From: Clostridiaceae bacterium
GTDB lineage: Bacteria; Bacillota; Clostridia; DUPQ01
NCBI GenBank assembly: GCA_012729955.1
Contig: JAAYBX010000006.1
Coordinates: 1 to 64,000, forward strand
Direction: 5' to 3'
Length of the DNA stretch: 64,000 nucleotides
This document shows positions 9,192 to 16,041 of this stretch, piece by piece. The notes under the pieces are model-generated. The model saw only the letters and a program-made list of their open reading frames with translations. It was not told the origin of the DNA and did not search any database. How positions within the stretch are numbered: the first letter of the stretch is position 1; the number at the start of each line of letters is the position of its first letter. The position numbers were made by a program, and so were the translations under genes.

Positions 9192-9282
9192 GGAGAGATG
9201 GTCGAGTTGGTTTAAGGCACCGGTCTTGAAAACCGGCGTAGGGGCAACCCTACCTAGGGTTCGAATCCCTATCTCTCCGCCA
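9192..9282 (+). tRNA. tRNA-Ser (anticodon TGA)
   Basis: The sequence folds as a class II tRNA. The acceptor stem pairs GGAGAGA with TCTCTCC, the anticodon loop contains TTGAA giving anticodon TGA, there is a long variable arm (GTAGGGGCAACCCTAC), and the T loop has GGTTCGAATCC. The discriminator is G and the 3' CCA is encoded. It reads UCN serine codons. Confidence 0.97.
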
Positions 9283-9285
9283 AAT

Positions 9286-9377
9286 GGAGAAGTACCCAAG
9301 TAGGCTCAAGGGGGCGGTTTGCTAAATCGTTAGTAGGGGTAACTCTAGCATGGGTTCGAATCCCATCTTCTCCGCCA
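9286..9377 (+). tRNA. tRNA-Ser (anticodon GCT)
   Basis: A second class II serine tRNA begins three bases after the first ends. The acceptor stem pairs GGAGAAG with CTTCTCC, the anticodon loop reads TTGCTAA (anticodon GCT, for AGC/AGU codons), and a long variable arm and GGTTCGAATCC T loop follow. CCA is encoded. The two tRNAs share one promoter and one terminator. Confidence 0.97.
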
Positions 9378-9519: not shown

Positions 9520-11367
9520 ATGAAATATGATGTCCTTGTTATAGGTGGAGGGTTATCAGGACTTACCGCTGCAGCTTTACTGGCAAAAAGTGGTGTAAAA
9601 ACAGTGGTTATTGATAAAAACTATAATCCTGGAGGATCATGCGGAATATTCAGAAGAGAAGGCGTTACTTTCGATCAGGGTTCTGCAATGCTATTCGGAT
9701 TTGGTGAAAAGGGATTTAATGCGCATAGGTTTGTTTTCAACTGTCTTGAGCAGCCAATAGACATGATAAAGCATGAATTATTGTATGTAATGAATTTTAA
9801 TGGGCATAAAATCAGATTTTTTGCAGATTTAAATTTGTTTGTTGAAGAACTATCTACAGTATTTCCAGATCAGAAAGAAAATATAAAACGTTTCTATAAC
9901 GATATGAGTATAATGTATCATGATGTACTTGTGGAAAATCCCAGTTATACAACACCTGATGAGATTGATCCTATGGATGCAAAAGAAAGTTTTTTAAAGC
10001 ATCCCAAGTCATATATAAAATTTTTAAGTTATCTTAATTCTAGTTCAGAAAAAATACTAAGAAAATATTTCAATAATGATGAAATAATCAAGTTTTTTGA
10101 TAAGCTGACTTCTACATACTGTTATACTACAACAGCGGAATCCCCGGCCATACTGGCTTCTGTCATGTTTGTGGATAACCATATAGGCGGAAGTTACTAT
10201 CCTGCTGGATCAACTCTTTTTCTTCCAGGGCTTTTAGAAAAGTCAATTGAAGAAAATGGTGGAGATATGATTATGCAAAGAGAAGTAAGTAAAATTATAT
10301 TTTTAGACAAAAAACCTGTAGGGGTAATGCTTAATGACCAAGAAAAGCTGTATGCTGATAATATAATATTTTCCGGAACAGTATGGGATTTATATGGAAG
10401 ACTGATTGATGAAGAAGAAACAAGCAAAAAGAAAAGAAAATGGGCTGAAAAAATGGTTCCAACATATCCTTCTGTAGTTTTATACCTCCTCGTCAAAGAA
10501 AAATGTATACCTGAAGACACGCAACCAGTTGAAATGCTGGTAGGAAATATTAACCAGATTGATGAAAGTGAAGTAACAGCATATATTTTTAGCATTGACG
10601 ACAAGACATTATGTAAGGAAGAACACCATGTAATAGCTGCAATCGGTCCTACTTTCATAAAATGGAATCAGCTTAATGATTCAGATTATATTTCAAGAAA
10701 AGAAGAAGAGAAAGAGAGAATAGTAAAAGTGCTGGAGAGAAGATTTCCAGGTATAAGAGAAAACATAGTTTACAGCAATCTGGCTACTTCAAAAACGCTT
10801 GAGAGGTATCTTAATAAAAAAGATGGCGCAGTAGCAGGACCAAAACAGAAACTTGGGCAGCATATGTTTAAAAGACAGCACACTAAGACTTGCTGGGATA
10901 ATTTATTCTGTTGTGGAGAATCGACTGTAATGGGGACAGGAACTCCAACAGTTACTACATCTGGTATATCTGCTGCAAATGCTGTTCTTGGTAAACTAGG
11001 AAAGCAAAAGTATAAATACGTCAAGAATAGGAAAAATTATGTAAATATGGTTGAAAGACCTGTTACTAATGAGAGTATATACCTTAAATATGATGAAAAG
11101 ACTGCAGATATTGTTAAAAAAGCATTTGCATGCCAGTTCTGTGAAAATCCAACATGTACAAAGGAATTTGACATAAGGGGAATTATGAGAAGAGTATGTA
11201 TTGGTAATTTCTCAGGAGCGAAAAAGATTATAAGTAAAGATCCGATAAATTGTACAAAAGAAAAGCTTTTAAAATATGAAAAAACATGTATAGAAAAAAA
11301 ACGAATAGGAAAATCAGTTGATGTATTTAAAGTAGTGGAATTTTTAAAGGAAAACATAAATGAATAA
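9520..11367 (+). CDS. CrtI/CrtN-like FAD oxidoreductase with cysteine-rich C-terminal domain
   Basis: A 615-residue flavoprotein of the phytoene-desaturase superfamily. The Rossmann dinucleotide motif is GGGLSGLTAAALLAKSG (8-24), followed by PGGSCG and a C-terminal FAD-contact region (GTPTVTTSGISAANAVLG). From about residue 537 it has an extra 79-residue tail starting CQFCENPTC, with later cysteines near 560, 578 and 590. The tail resembles the GltD/dihydropyrimidine-dehydrogenase N-terminal Fe-S domain (CX2CX4CX3CP, then DI....I..GNF.GA..II...P), but phenylalanine replaces the fourth cysteine. I chose the ATG at 9520 because GGGG precedes it. A longer reading from a TTG at 9412 would start just beyond the tRNA terminator. 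Substrate unknown: the family desaturates or oxidises polyprenoid chains. It overlaps the next gene by eight bases. Confidence 0.8.
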   Translation: MKYDVLVIGGGLSGLTAAALLAKSGVKTVVIDKNYNPGGSCGIFRREGVTFDQGSAMLFGFGEKGFNAHRFVFNCLEQPIDMIKHELLYVMNFNGHKIRFFADLNLFVEELSTVFPDQKENIKRFYNDMSIMYHDVLVENPSYTTPDEIDPMDAKESFLKHPKSYIKFLSYLNSSSEKILRKYFNNDEIIKFFDKLTSTYCYTTTAESPAILASVMFVDNHIGGSYYPAGSTLFLPGLLEKSIEENGGDMIMQREVSKIIFLDKKPVGVMLNDQEKLYADNIIFSGTVWDLYGRLIDEEETSKKKRKWAEKMVPTYPSVVLYLLVKEKCIPEDTQPVEMLVGNINQIDESEVTAYIFSIDDKTLCKEEHHVIAAIGPTFIKWNQLNDSDYISRKEEEKERIVKVLERRFPGIRENIVYSNLATSKTLERYLNKKDGAVAGPKQKLGQHMFKRQHTKTCWDNLFCCGESTVMGTGTPTVTTSGISAANAVLGKLGKQKYKYVKNRKNYVNMVERPVTNESIYLKYDEKTADIVKKAFACQFCENPTCTKEFDIRGIMRRVCIGNFSGAKKIISKDPINCTKEKLLKYEKTCIEKKRIGKSVDVFKVVEFLKENINE

Positions 11368-12973
11368 AAATAAATATGAAGCAATAGTAGTGGGTGCTGG
11401 TATTGGCGGTTTGACAGCAGCAGCTTATCTTTCAAGAAATAATATAGAAACACTGCTTATAGATAAGAATATTAAGCCAGGAGGGTTGGTAAATACTTTT
11501 TCGCACAATGGATTTAAGTTTGATGGAGGAGCAAGAGCATTTGAAAATTCAGGAGTAATTTTTCCTATGCTAAAACAACTCGGAATTGATATCAAATTCG
11601 TTCATAATCTTGTAAGTGTGGGAATAGCAGATGAAATAGTTGACTTTGTATCACAAGAAAGTCTTGTTGAGTATCAACAACTGCTATGCAATACTTATCC
11701 GGATAATACAGAAGAGATATTTCTTATTATTAAAGAGATTAAAAAAGTAATAGAATATATGTCAGTTATTTATGGGATTGATAATCCTATGTTCTGTGAT
11801 AATTTCACTGATAAGGAATATGTTTTTAAAGAACTGTTTCCCTGGCTGATGAAGTATATTGTAAATATTAAGAAAGCACAAAAGCTAAATCAACCGGTTG
11901 AAGATTATTTACATAGATTTACAGATAATCAATCACTGATAGATGCTGTTATACAGCATTTCTTTAAGGGAACACCTACATTTTTTGCACTTAGTTATTT
12001 CGGGCAGTATCTGGATTATTCATATCCGATGGGAGGTACAGGCGTTCTTGCTGACAGTATGGCAGAATACATAATTAAAAAGAATAACGAAATACTCACA
12101 CAAACCGAAGTGCTATCTGTTGATGTTAAAGATAAAACTGTAACAATAAGTAATAACCGGAAAGTTTCGTATGACTATTTAATATGGGCTGCAGATTTAA
12201 GAGTGTTATACTCAAATATAAATACTTTTCATATGAAGAATAAAGACAGGAAGAAAGTTGAAAAGACTAAAAGCCGTATATTAACAAGTCATGGAAGCGA
12301 TTCTGTTCTTTCTGTTTTTATTGAAACAGAATTAAATATTGACTATTTTAAGGATAAAATAAAAGGCCATTGTTTTTATACTCCTGATAAAAGGGGATTA
12401 AGTATGTCTTTGTTGTCAAAAAGAGATGTATATTTAAAAGATAAGGCAGGAGATGATGAATACGAAGCTTTAAAAGAAATTATTCTCGAATATCTGGAGC
12501 TGACAACATATGAAATTTCTATACCTTCCTTAAGAGATGAAACCATGTCTCCATCAGGAAAGACAGGAGTAATAGTAAGCACATTGATGGAATATGATGT
12601 ATTTAAACAATCAATAGAAAAAGGCTGGTATGAAAATCTGAAAAGCTTTTGTGTAAACAGTATATTGAAAGTTCTTGATAGGAGTATTTTTCCAGGAATT
12701 TTAGAAAAAACAATTAATACCATATGCGCGACACCTGTAACAATAGAAAATGTTACAAAAGGACTCGAAGGTTCAATAACAGGATGGGCTTACAGTCTCA
12801 ACATGCCAGTTCAAAGCTCCATGACAAAAATAGCTTCATCCGTGGAAACTGATATAAAAGATGTCTTCAAAGCGGGCCAATGGGCTTTTTATCCATCTGG
12901 TCTTCCTACATGCATAATAACAGGAAAACTTGCAGCAGATAAAGTCATTAAAAAGATAGGTAAAAAGTCATGA
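11360..12973 (+). CDS. Second CrtI/CrtN/CrtP-like FAD oxidoreductase
   Basis: This 537-residue flavoprotein has the Rossmann motif GAGIGGLTAAAYLSR (12-26), DKNIKPGGL, and a C-terminal FAD-binding region ending GLPTCIITGKLAADKV. It belongs to the same superfamily as CrtI/CrtN desaturases and the retinol-saturase-like proteins. It is a paralogue of the upstream gene but lacks the cysteine-rich tail. Two desaturase-like genes in tandem followed by CrtQ- and CrtO-like genes recall staphyloxanthin loci (CrtN, CrtP, CrtQ, CrtO). CrtP is an oxygen-using enzyme, and oxygen use is unlikely if this organism is anaerobic. The gene overlaps both neighbours, so all are translated from one message. Confidence 0.8.
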   Translation: MNKNKYEAIVVGAGIGGLTAAAYLSRNNIETLLIDKNIKPGGLVNTFSHNGFKFDGGARAFENSGVIFPMLKQLGIDIKFVHNLVSVGIADEIVDFVSQESLVEYQQLLCNTYPDNTEEIFLIIKEIKKVIEYMSVIYGIDNPMFCDNFTDKEYVFKELFPWLMKYIVNIKKAQKLNQPVEDYLHRFTDNQSLIDAVIQHFFKGTPTFFALSYFGQYLDYSYPMGGTGVLADSMAEYIIKKNNEILTQTEVLSVDVKDKTVTISNNRKVSYDYLIWAADLRVLYSNINTFHMKNKDRKKVEKTKSRILTSHGSDSVLSVFIETELNIDYFKDKIKGHCFYTPDKRGLSMSLLSKRDVYLKDKAGDDEYEALKEIILEYLELTTYEISIPSLRDETMSPSGKTGVIVSTLMEYDVFKQSIEKGWYENLKSFCVNSILKVLDRSIFPGILEKTINTICATPVTIENVTKGLEGSITGWAYSLNMPVQSSMTKIASSVETDIKDVFKAGQWAFYPSGLPTCIITGKLAADKVIKKIGKKS

Positions 12974-14052
12974 TATACAATATTGTGCTTATATCAATAG
13001 GATTAATCTGCAGCATAATTCTTTTTTATAGGTTTCCTTTTTTAAAAAGAAAAGAAAAGAGCTCCAAATTACTGGTTTCTGTTGTTATACCAGCAAGAAA
13101 TGAAGCAAAAACGCTCCCCTTTCTTTTGTCAGATTTACAAAAATGCATAACGGATATACATGAAATTATCTGTGTCAATGACGGATCTACAGATAACACA
13201 AAAGAAGTAATAAACGAGTATGGATTCAGTCTTGTAGATGTTAAAGATAAACCCGAAAAATGGATGGGTAAATCATGGGCTTGCCAGAAAGGGGCATCTG
13301 TCGCTACAGGAGATATTATTTTGTTTCTTGATGCGGATGTTAGACTAAACAAACAAGGACTTAATAAGCTTGTATCTGAATATGAGGATAGTAAAAAAGC
13401 AATATCCGTGCAGCCGTATCATAAAATGGAAAAAGCATATGAGAAGCTATCATTCATTTTTAATATTGTGCAAGTCGGTGGAAATGGTACCTCATGTGCT
13501 ATAAAAAACGGAACAGCAGGATTGTTTGGTCCGGTAATTTTAATAAACCGTAAAGAATATATATCAATTGGCGGACACAGCGGAGCGAAGGATGTCATTC
13601 TTGAAGACCTTGCCATAGGCCAGGTTCTTAATGCAAGAGGTTTGGGATATGAGCTTTTTCTTGGAGGAGAAGACATATCATTTAGAATGTACAGTCAGGG
13701 AATAAAGCAGATTATTGAAGGATGGACAAAAAACTATGCTGCTGGTGCCGCAATGGCAAGAGCTGACATTTTTATAATGACTTTCCTTTGGATTTCCGCT
13801 CTTTGTTCAACAGCATTCAATTTTATTTCATCTTTGTTTTCAACAGATTTAATTAAATTAATAGTATTCTCTTCTTTTTATGTATTATGGGTGATTGAAT
13901 TAACAAGAATATCAAAAAAAGTGGGTAATTATAATATTCTGAATGCTGTTTTATATCCGGGTTATATGATTTTTTTTCTTACTATATTCTTCATTTCTGT
14001 GCTTAAAAAGCTACTAAAAATCAAAGTCTCATGGAAAGGCAGGAAAATATAA
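12970..14052 (+). CDS. CrtQ-like membrane glycosyltransferase (GT2)
   Basis: A 360-residue family 2 glycosyltransferase with an N-terminal membrane anchor (about 3-22). The GT-A nucleotide-binding segment begins SVVIPARNEAKTLPFLL near residue 37. The sugar-nucleotide motif is DADVRLN, the acceptor-site acidic motif LEDLAIGQ, and several C-terminal transmembrane segments follow from about residue 265. This is the layout of CrtQ, which glucosylates diaponeurosporenoate, and of related polyisoprenoid and hopanoid transferases. The lipid acceptor here is unknown. It shares ATGA with the preceding gene, and its TAA overlaps the ATG of the next. Confidence 0.82.
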   Translation: MIYNIVLISIGLICSIILFYRFPFLKRKEKSSKLLVSVVIPARNEAKTLPFLLSDLQKCITDIHEIICVNDGSTDNTKEVINEYGFSLVDVKDKPEKWMGKSWACQKGASVATGDIILFLDADVRLNKQGLNKLVSEYEDSKKAISVQPYHKMEKAYEKLSFIFNIVQVGGNGTSCAIKNGTAGLFGPVILINRKEYISIGGHSGAKDVILEDLAIGQVLNARGLGYELFLGGEDISFRMYSQGIKQIIEGWTKNYAAGAAMARADIFIMTFLWISALCSTAFNFISSLFSTDLIKLIVFSSFYVLWVIELTRISKKVGNYNILNAVLYPGYMIFFLTIFFISVLKKLLKIKVSWKGRKI

Positions 14053-14549
14053 TGCGCATACTTTTTCTACCCGATATCTGGACAATACTGCTTTGTATTC
14101 CTTTATGGTTTGTATTTCACATGCTTCCTGCCTTGATATGTTTAAAAATTCCAGATAAATACTATAATCCTAAAGGTATAATTTACAGAACCAGAAAATG
14201 GGAAAAAAAAGGAGAAATATATCAGAGTCTTTTTAAGGTAAAAAAATGGAAAAAATATCTTCCTGACGGAGGTGCTATGTTTAAGGAAGGTTACAAAAAA
14301 AGAAATCTCACAGAGTATACTTCACAATCTTTAGAAAAATTTGCAGTTGAAACATGCAGAGCGGAAATGACTCATATCCTTGCAATATTTCCATTCTGGA
14401 TATTCGGTTTTATTGCTCCTCCGGTAATTGTGCTTTACATGCTTATATATGCGCTTGCCGTTAATCTTCCATGCATAGTTACACAAAGATACAACAGACC
14501 GAGGATATTAGCTTTTAAAGATAAGATAGATAATGCAGTTATAGGATAA
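14052..14549 (+). CDS. CrtO-like acyltransferase (glycosyl-diaponeurosporenoate acyltransferase family)
   Basis: A 165-residue membrane protein with an N-terminal hydrophobic segment, the motif YRTRKWEKKGEIYQ, then VKKWKKYLPDGGAMF, a conserved AEMTHI segment and two C-terminal membrane segments. These features match the CrtO family, which esterifies a fatty acid to the sugar of staphyloxanthin. The family is also common in anaerobic Clostridia, where no carotenoid is known, so the name may overstate the chemistry. I chose the ATG at 14052 over one at 14031: AGGAAA at 14041 gives good spacing, and the start then overlaps the preceding stop as TAATG. Confidence 0.8.
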   Translation: MRILFLPDIWTILLCIPLWFVFHMLPALICLKIPDKYYNPKGIIYRTRKWEKKGEIYQSLFKVKKWKKYLPDGGAMFKEGYKKRNLTEYTSQSLEKFAVETCRAEMTHILAIFPFWIFGFIAPPVIVLYMLIYALAVNLPCIVTQRYNRPRILAFKDKIDNAVIG

Positions 14550-14592: not shown

Positions 14593-16041
14593 ATGAGCTT
14601 TAATTCATTACCATACATAATATTTATTATAGTCGTCTGTGTGCTTCACTATATTGTAAGGCCTAAATACAGGAATACGGTACTGCTTGCTGCGAGTTAT
14701 TTTTTCTATATATACATTGACCCAAGATATGTTTTCTTCTTAATATTTTCAACAGTATCGAGTTATTTTGTTTCGAGGATAATGGAAAGGGATGTAGAGA
14801 AGAGAAGAAAATTTTGGCTGATTTTAGGTATAGTCTTGAATATTGGTTTATTATTTACCTTTAAATATCTTAATTTTTTAGGTTCAAGCATTTCAGGCCT
14901 TTTATTGCAGCTTAATATGCCTATTCTTCCCAGGATTAATCTAATAATACCGATAGGAATATCATTTTACAGTTTTACAGTCACAGGGTATCTTATAGAT
15001 GTATACAGAAAGAAAAGTTCTCCTGAAAAAAACATCATTGACTATGCATTATTTGTATCTTTCTTTCCTCAGCTATTATCAGGGCCAATAGAAAGAGCAT
15101 CAAATATGCTTATTCAATATAAGAAAACAAGAAAATTCAATTTTATAAATTTAAAAACAGGAATGACGAGATTTTTATGGGGCTTATTCAAAAAAATGAT
15201 TATAGCTGACCAGCTCGCTATTATTGTTAATGGAACATATGGATCATTGTCTGACAAAACAGGTATAAATGTAATATTTGCGGTAATCGCATATTCATTA
15301 CAGATATATGTTGATTTTTCAGCATATTCAGACATGGCAATAGGATCGGCAAGGCTGTTAGGACTTAATATAATGGAAAATTTCGACAGTCCTTATTTGT
15401 CTTCATCAGTAAAAACATTCTGGAGAAGATGGCACATATCACTGACTTCCTGGTTCAGGGATTACCTCTATATACCTTTAGGAGGAAGCAGATGTTCAAA
15501 AATAAAGAATATATTCAATATACTTATTGTTTTTACGGTTAGCGGATTATGGCATGGTGCTTCAGTGACATTTATAATATGGGGAGCTGTTAATGGTCTT
15601 TATCTGGTAATAGGGAATATCATGTCTCCTTTATACAAAAAGATAAAAAATTTCTTAAATATTAAAGACAGCTGCAATATTATTAATTTAATTAAAGGTG
15701 TTGTTACCTTTATACTTATTTCCTTTACATGGATATTTTTCAGAGCGGATAATATGGAACACGCTTTTTCCATATTAAGTGCCGTATTTGGTAAAACAAC
15801 GGGGATATTTAGTGTTGAATCATTAGGAGTTGATGTTTATAGCCTTATAATACTGGGGATTTCCATTGCATTGTTATTAATTATCGACATACTTGCAAGA
15901 AAGATAGATATTTTGGATGTAATAAACAAAAATGTATGGTTAACATATATGGTATGTTTTCTGATGATAATAGCTATTTTGCTATTCGGATTATATGGTA
16001 CGGGATTTGACCCTCTTGATTTTGTGTATTTTAAATTCTAG
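14593..16041 (+). CDS. MBOAT-family membrane O-acyltransferase
   Basis: The 482-residue polytopic protein has the DltB/AlgI pattern: N-terminal membrane helices; [22 protein letters not shown] near residue 115; [45 protein letters not shown]-type core (around 265-290); and the catalytic-region histidine in SGLWHGAS near 320. MBOAT proteins move acyl or acetyl groups onto polysaccharides, teichoic acids or lipids. No DltA/DltC or SGNH-type partner (AlgJ/AlgX) is adjacent. It follows the CrtO-like gene by 43 bases in the same direction, so it may belong to the same lipid pathway, or may be an independent polysaccharide acylation gene. The specificity cannot be read from the sequence. Confidence 0.88.
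   Translation: [482 protein letters not shown]

Follow-up and report, generated by a model that had tools for sequence, protein, structure and literature searches.

The 64,000-nucleotide window analysed here, positions 1 to 64,000 of contig JAAYBX010000006.1 from a Clostridiaceae bacterium, contains four overlapping genes (9520–14549) that may constitute a single operon for the oxygen-independent assembly of an acylated glycosyl polyene, a carotenoid-like compound, under exposure to light or oxygen. We put the chances of this reading at about even. The window is one contig (C49) of a 2.28-Mb metagenome-assembled genome (MAG; G000 in our set) that is 96% complete in 202 contigs. The operon encodes two flavoenzymes, here called FE1 and FE2, followed by a glycosyltransferase (GT) and a CrtO-like protein:

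9520–11367, + strand: FE1, 615 residues, CrtISO-like oxidoreductase of the flavin adenine dinucleotide (FAD) type, with a C-terminal iron–sulfur (Fe–S)-type domain
11107–11358, + strand: C-terminal domain of FE1, residues 530–613, NfnL/GltD-N-type, with conserved Cys538, Cys541, Cys546 and Cys590
11360–12973, + strand: FE2, 537 residues, CrtI-superfamily FAD oxidoreductase in a clade of its own
12970–14052, + strand: GT, 360 residues, CrtQ-family GT2 glycosyltransferase
14052–14549, + strand: CrtO-like protein, 165 residues, CrtO-family acyltransferase, its ATG at 14052 lying inside TAATG

The overlaps between FE1 and FE2, FE2 and GT, and GT and the CrtO-like gene are 8, 4 and 1 bases, as an earlier note on this DNA had described, and are consistent with translational coupling of the four genes. 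Their grouping is more than chance. The four occur together in 25 further loci that were fetched, in the same order in 23, and the carriers include Bacillota, Chloroflexota, Lentisphaerota and others, mostly of anaerobe lineages. The search for relatives used two short peptide patterns, which biases the sample towards conserved FE1; the carriers are mostly MAGs, some of whose names (Micrarchaeota, L054, for example) suggest binning errors. The organism of the window is itself probably anaerobic, judging from its relatives and from a gene close to its heliorhodopsin gene that by eye is of the pyruvate formate-lyase type.

The tailoring enzymes are the most readily placed. With the annotated crtO-crtP-crtQ-crtM-crtN locus of Staphylococcus equorum plasmid pC2014-2 (L168) as reference, GT is 33.6% identical to CrtQ over 357 residues (E = 4.5e-64), and the CrtO-like protein 33.8% identical to CrtO over 142 residues (E = 4e-28). 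GT also matches Glycos_transf_2 (3.9e-27) and keeps the motif D121-A-D123, which is conserved in the family alignment; the CrtO-like protein matches PF18927, CrtO, at 2e-33 and 115.8 bits, above the cut-off of 27.3. By these alignments and profiles the two are true relatives of the staphyloxanthin CrtQ and CrtO families, and their earlier designation as CrtQ-like and CrtO-like is borne out. Two variants of the tailoring genes were seen elsewhere: a GT–CrtO pair, 43–48% identical, stands without FE1 at L017 2463–4093, in a genome (G022) that also has a heliorhodopsin, and a CrtO-family domain lies inside a 572-residue open reading frame, possibly a fusion protein, at L019 6448–8166 (G051).

FE1 and FE2 both match the Pfam families Amino_oxidase and NAD_binding_8, and the term CrtI/CrtN-like that had been applied to them holds at the level of the superfamily. 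It does not extend to membership of CrtI, CrtN or CrtP. Identity to CrtN and CrtP is only 20–25%, and the scores against TIGR02734 (crtI_fam), 120.8 bits for FE1 and 80.1 for FE2, are both below the cut-off of 238.1. The best family for FE1 is TIGR02730 (carot_isom), matched over the full length at 291.2 bits, again below its cut-off (586.9). The references of a maximum-likelihood tree, none of them a CrtISO, were CrtN and CrtP of Staphylococcus, CrtI of Pantoea and of Thermus, and five desaturases linked to CrtB (Acetobacterium, Proteiniclasticum and a spirochaete). The tree resolves three clades, one that holds all of these references (100/100), one of FE1 (100/99) and one of FE2 (100/100); the branches are long and the deep order of the clades is uncertain. 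On this phylogeny neither enzyme lies inside the true carotenoid desaturases tested, and the tree and family scores together rule out CrtN and CrtP as identities for them. The four genes thus do not equal the CrtN/CrtP/CrtQ/CrtO set that the earlier note had seen in them, the flavoenzymes belonging to other clades and FE1 having an additional domain. FE1 is predicted to adopt a carotenoid desaturase fold: the best solved match of its AlphaFold2 model (predicted local distance difference test, pLDDT, 90.8) is the gamma-carotenoid desaturase 4rep, with a template modelling score of 0.81 on the target.

Other flavoenzymes of this kind came to light in the survey. A third, distant CrtI-like enzyme of the same genome (L014 1498–3003; G000:C133) adjoins an apparent transporter of the major facilitator superfamily. 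The sole plasmid match of FE2, a CrtI-like flavoenzyme of Pseudalkalibacillus hwajinpoensis (L163 7977–9482), sits in a KS/ACP/HAD-IIIC/KAS III cluster that resembles tetronate or acyl-chain biosynthesis. In the Acetobacterium dehalogenans isolate DSM 11527 (L083 11876–13600), FE2 is split between two reading frames, by a frameshift or an assembly error.

FE1 extends about 110 residues past the flavoenzyme fold. The four cysteines listed above are invariant in 35 aligned FE1 relatives and conserved in at least 95% of 77, and the FE1 family profile matches the N-terminal Fe–S region of NfnL (4ylf_B) over residues 530–613 (E = 3.9e-9). The domain probably binds an Fe–S cluster. In six loci (L087, L090–L093 and L113) FE1 is closely preceded by a flavodoxin gene, and in L104 a flavodoxin–ferredoxin fusion adjoins it; FE1 may exchange electrons, in either direction, with such proteins rather than with O2. 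VanA-like Rieske oxygenases lie directly upstream of FE1 in L049, L059, L062 and L075; since these enzymes need O2, they fit poorly with a pathway wholly free of oxygen in those four loci. A fuller set of cysteines, read by eye from the alignment, is found in L098, L099 and L105–L107, which form a branch of divergent FE1 sequences from Clostridium and Niameybacter. The genes of this branch adjoin an ABC transporter (an ATPase and two permeases), not FE2, GT or CrtO.

The backbone synthase, which the earlier note had found to be missing from the window, is missing from the whole genome. No match to squalene/phytoene synthase (PF00494) was obtained in G000 even at E ≤ 10, and none was found in the sister genomes G001–G003, so all four genomes of the genus lack it. 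The same is true of 61 of the 79 FE1-carrying genomes. Full four-gene modules are found in genomes without PF00494 at 18 of 25 loci and with it at 7, and three isolates, HV4-5-B5C, Parasporobacterium paucivorans DSM 15970 and Acetobacterium paludosum DSM 8237, carry the full module without the synthase. On these searches we reject, for the window genome and several isolates, a CrtM that was simply missed. A single E-prenyl synthase was detected in the window genome, ispA, beside xseA, xseB and dxs (here and below, such gene names were read from the sequences).

PF00494 nonetheless occurs more often among FE1 carriers (18/79) than in a sample of Clostridia (5/391, uncorrected for phylogeny). 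FE1 and carotenoid metabolism are therefore associated, and a link of the operon to carotenoid chemistry is likely. This enrichment and the light-stress neighbours described below make a polyene or carotenoid role likelier than the unrelated, non-carotenoid lipid that had been guessed at. Loci with FE1 only do not differ significantly in PF00494 content from loci with FE2 or GT (Fisher p 0.16). In the Acetobacterium examined, PF00494 stands beside a CrtI of its own, on another contig than the module. A CrtI–CrtB pair in Acetobacterium dehalogenans (L034 7812–11734) is followed by two membrane proteins that by eye resemble phytol kinase (VTE5) and DUF92/VTE6, a possible case of prenol salvage in a carotenoid cluster.

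Besides flavodoxin, the genes that recur next to FE1 encode the UV endonuclease UvdE (13 loci), a membrane protein of about 267 residues (16), heliorhodopsin (5) and Rieske oxygenase (4). By a rough Poisson estimate the five adjacent heliorhodopsins are far above chance, although three of them are from Anaerolineaceae and not independent. Heliorhodopsin was found in 20 of the 52 FE1 genomes searched, as against 9 of 391 Clostridia (Fisher p about 3e-14), and both the window's genome (G000:C70:6241–6990; L146 6217–6999) and its sister G003 have one. That of the window's genome keeps the retinal lysine motif and lies on a different contig from the operon, in a genome that lacks both PF00494 and Blh. 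The motif is kept in all 16 heliorhodopsins aligned, Blh did not exceed the cut-off in any of 26 heliorhodopsin genomes, and 18 of the 20 genomes with both FE1 and heliorhodopsin lack PF00494. The neighbours and the co-occurrence in genomes point to a role in light or oxygen stress. Zinc-finger-type heliorhodopsins are reported to be flanked by carotenoid genes and by UvdE or photolyases (Bulzu et al., PMC8612252), and part of the light-stress neighbourhood is therefore known already. Synthesis of the heliorhodopsin chromophore was rejected as the main function, since 32 of the 52 carriers have no heliorhodopsin match and there are Clostridia that have heliorhodopsin but no FE1; it is retained only as a minor reading.

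In the proposed pathway FE2 would dehydrogenate, or otherwise alter the saturation of, a long unsaturated chain, and FE1 would isomerise or reduce the polyene, its fused NfnL/GltD-type domain passing electrons to or from FAD. Flavodoxin or ferredoxin, instead of O2, would feed this domain. The CrtQ-type enzyme would then attach a sugar and the CrtO-type enzyme esterify it with a fatty acid, as in staphyloxanthin, to give an acyl-glycosyl polyene that could act in membranes exposed to light or oxygen. The substrate may be a scavenged carotenoid or retinoid, or an endogenous linear prenyl chain. We infer each catalytic step from the family of the enzyme concerned, and the Fe–S cluster, the photoprotective role, the substrate, and the product and its newness likewise from sequence.

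Several points weigh against this proposal. We know of no established chemistry for either FE1 or FE2. The Pfam family Fer4_20 scores below its cut-off on the FE1 of the window (E = 0.0098; 16.1 against 25.8 bits), and the window cluster itself has neither UvdE nor heliorhodopsin adjacent. The enrichments of PF00494 and heliorhodopsin are uncorrected for phylogeny, with carriers that span phyla beyond the Clostridia background. CrtO-family genes stand alone in many Clostridia, so CrtO by itself is no proof of a carotenoid-like product.

The source of the chain is where the alternatives diverge. The operon might modify external carotenoids, apocarotenoids or retinoids from plant or algal debris or from other bacteria, with FE1 and FE2 isomerising or reducing them and GT and CrtO anchoring them as acyl-glycosides, possibly also in the service of heliorhodopsin. 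Such scavenging would explain the absence of PF00494 from most carriers and the heliorhodopsins that keep the retinal lysine where Blh is lacking; the bacterial-type carotenoid isomerase of Brachyspira and Spironucleus, which have no carotenoid synthesis, has been read in the same way (PMC6397501). No uptake gene is linked to the operon, however, a biosynthetic-looking operon of four genes that crosses phyla is a great deal for salvage, and many carriers come, by their record titles, from dark digesters and groundwater. We consider this explanation somewhat unlikely. A rather less probable idea is that a carotenoid-like pigment or retinal-like chromophore is made from a linear prenyl chain with neither squalene/phytoene synthase nor O2. 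FE2 would directly dehydrogenate a C15 farnesyl or poly-cis C55 undecaprenyl chain, FE1 would isomerise the poly-cis polyene with electrons from flavodoxin, and CrtQ and CrtO would cap it as an acyl-glycoside; in carriers of heliorhodopsin an intermediate could serve as chromophore.

It is also conceivable, if improbable, that no pigment is involved, and that the flavoenzymes act on a fatty-acyl or undecaprenyl chain, adding or removing double bonds, before it is made into a membrane glycolipid. A genome with one E-prenyl synthase and no PF00494 has C15 and C55 prenyl chains at hand, and the best plasmid relative of FE2 lies in an acyl-chain cluster; the light and UV genes near FE1, the closeness of GT to CrtQ and the enrichment of PF00494 in carriers argue the other way. 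Least of all do we expect an ordinary C30 carotenoid pathway, with a CrtM that the assembly lacks or that has diverged beyond detection. The assembly is indeed incomplete and fragmented, and 7 of 25 full-module genomes do have PF00494, but this explanation must contend with the lack of any candidate in G000, with the absence of the synthase from all four genomes of the genus and from three full-module isolates, with the position of FE1 and FE2 outside CrtN and CrtP, and with the Acetobacterium synthase that lies apart from the module beside a CrtI of its own.

The operon lies near the replication origin, with recF, gyrB, parA, parB, a DUF4446 gene and two serine tRNA genes upstream, and an MBOAT gene followed by rnpA, yidC, jag and mnmE on the 3′ side. 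The features immediately flanking it are:

9192–9282 and 9286–9377: two tandem serine tRNA genes, anticodons TGA and GCT, directly before the operon
14593–16041, + strand: MBOAT O-acyltransferase, 482 residues (PF03062, 6.9e-31)

Tandem tRNA genes are a common insertion site for mobile islands. The MBOAT gene starts 44 bases after the CrtO-like gene and is kept in the sister genome G003 (75%); none was seen next to the module in other loci, and a genus-specific extra acylation step is possible. The recurrent multi-helix membrane protein of about 267 residues (the A5 family; L043 1956–2762, L047 6024–6827, L076 9155–9961 and 13 other loci) gave no Pfam family, PDB profile match or fold match, even with a model of pLDDT 91.6. 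Its identification as TspO/CrtK is unsupported (3.7 bits to TspO), and it may act in this pathway as an enzyme or carrier not yet recognised.

No account of the operon turned up in literature searches on CrtISO together with iron–sulfur or flavodoxin, on carotenoids of Acetobacterium and Sphaerochaeta, or on staphyloxanthin homologues of anaerobes. It would thus appear to be an undescribed cross-phylum system in which staphyloxanthin-type tailoring stands apart from the backbone synthase and is joined to flavoenzymes suited to an oxygen-free life. There would be a second origin for carotenoid-like pigments should the cell itself make the polyene, and the use of an endogenous linear prenyl chain would be new biochemistry. 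A bacterium with rhodopsin and without known retinal cleavage genes makes retinal by an unidentified route (PMC7734400), and the tie to heliorhodopsins in genomes without known retinal genes bears on the question of where such chromophores come from.

Among known systems, the CrtISO-like carotenoid isomerase of Brachyspira and Spironucleus, which is adjacent to flavodoxin in the former and induced by oxygen in the latter (PMC6397501), resembles FE1 as a flavoenzyme of anaerobes with a flavodoxin neighbour and differs in that no GT or CrtO partners are reported. CrtISO/CrtH (TIGR02730) is the best-scoring family for FE1, and its isomerase chemistry with reduced FAD is a plausible analogy; FE1, however, reaches half the curated cut-off and has the additional NfnL/GltD-type domain, and most of its carriers make no carotenoid backbone. 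The carotenoid glycoside ester cluster of Thermus brockianus (L166) shares with the operon a GT2 enzyme, an acyltransferase and a CrtI-type flavoenzyme, and also contains a photolyase gene. Unlike the operon, it includes phytoene synthase, lycopene cyclase and a P450, its acyltransferase is of another family, and GT is less similar to its glycosyltransferase than to CrtQ (109 against 198 bits). The crtOPQMN locus of S. equorum likewise sets a CrtQ-family glycosyltransferase and a CrtO-family acyltransferase beside flavoenzyme genes. The operon departs from it in dispensing with CrtM, in flavoenzymes that are not orthologues of CrtN and CrtP, in the Fe–S-type domain added to FE1, and in carriers that belong mostly to anaerobe lineages.

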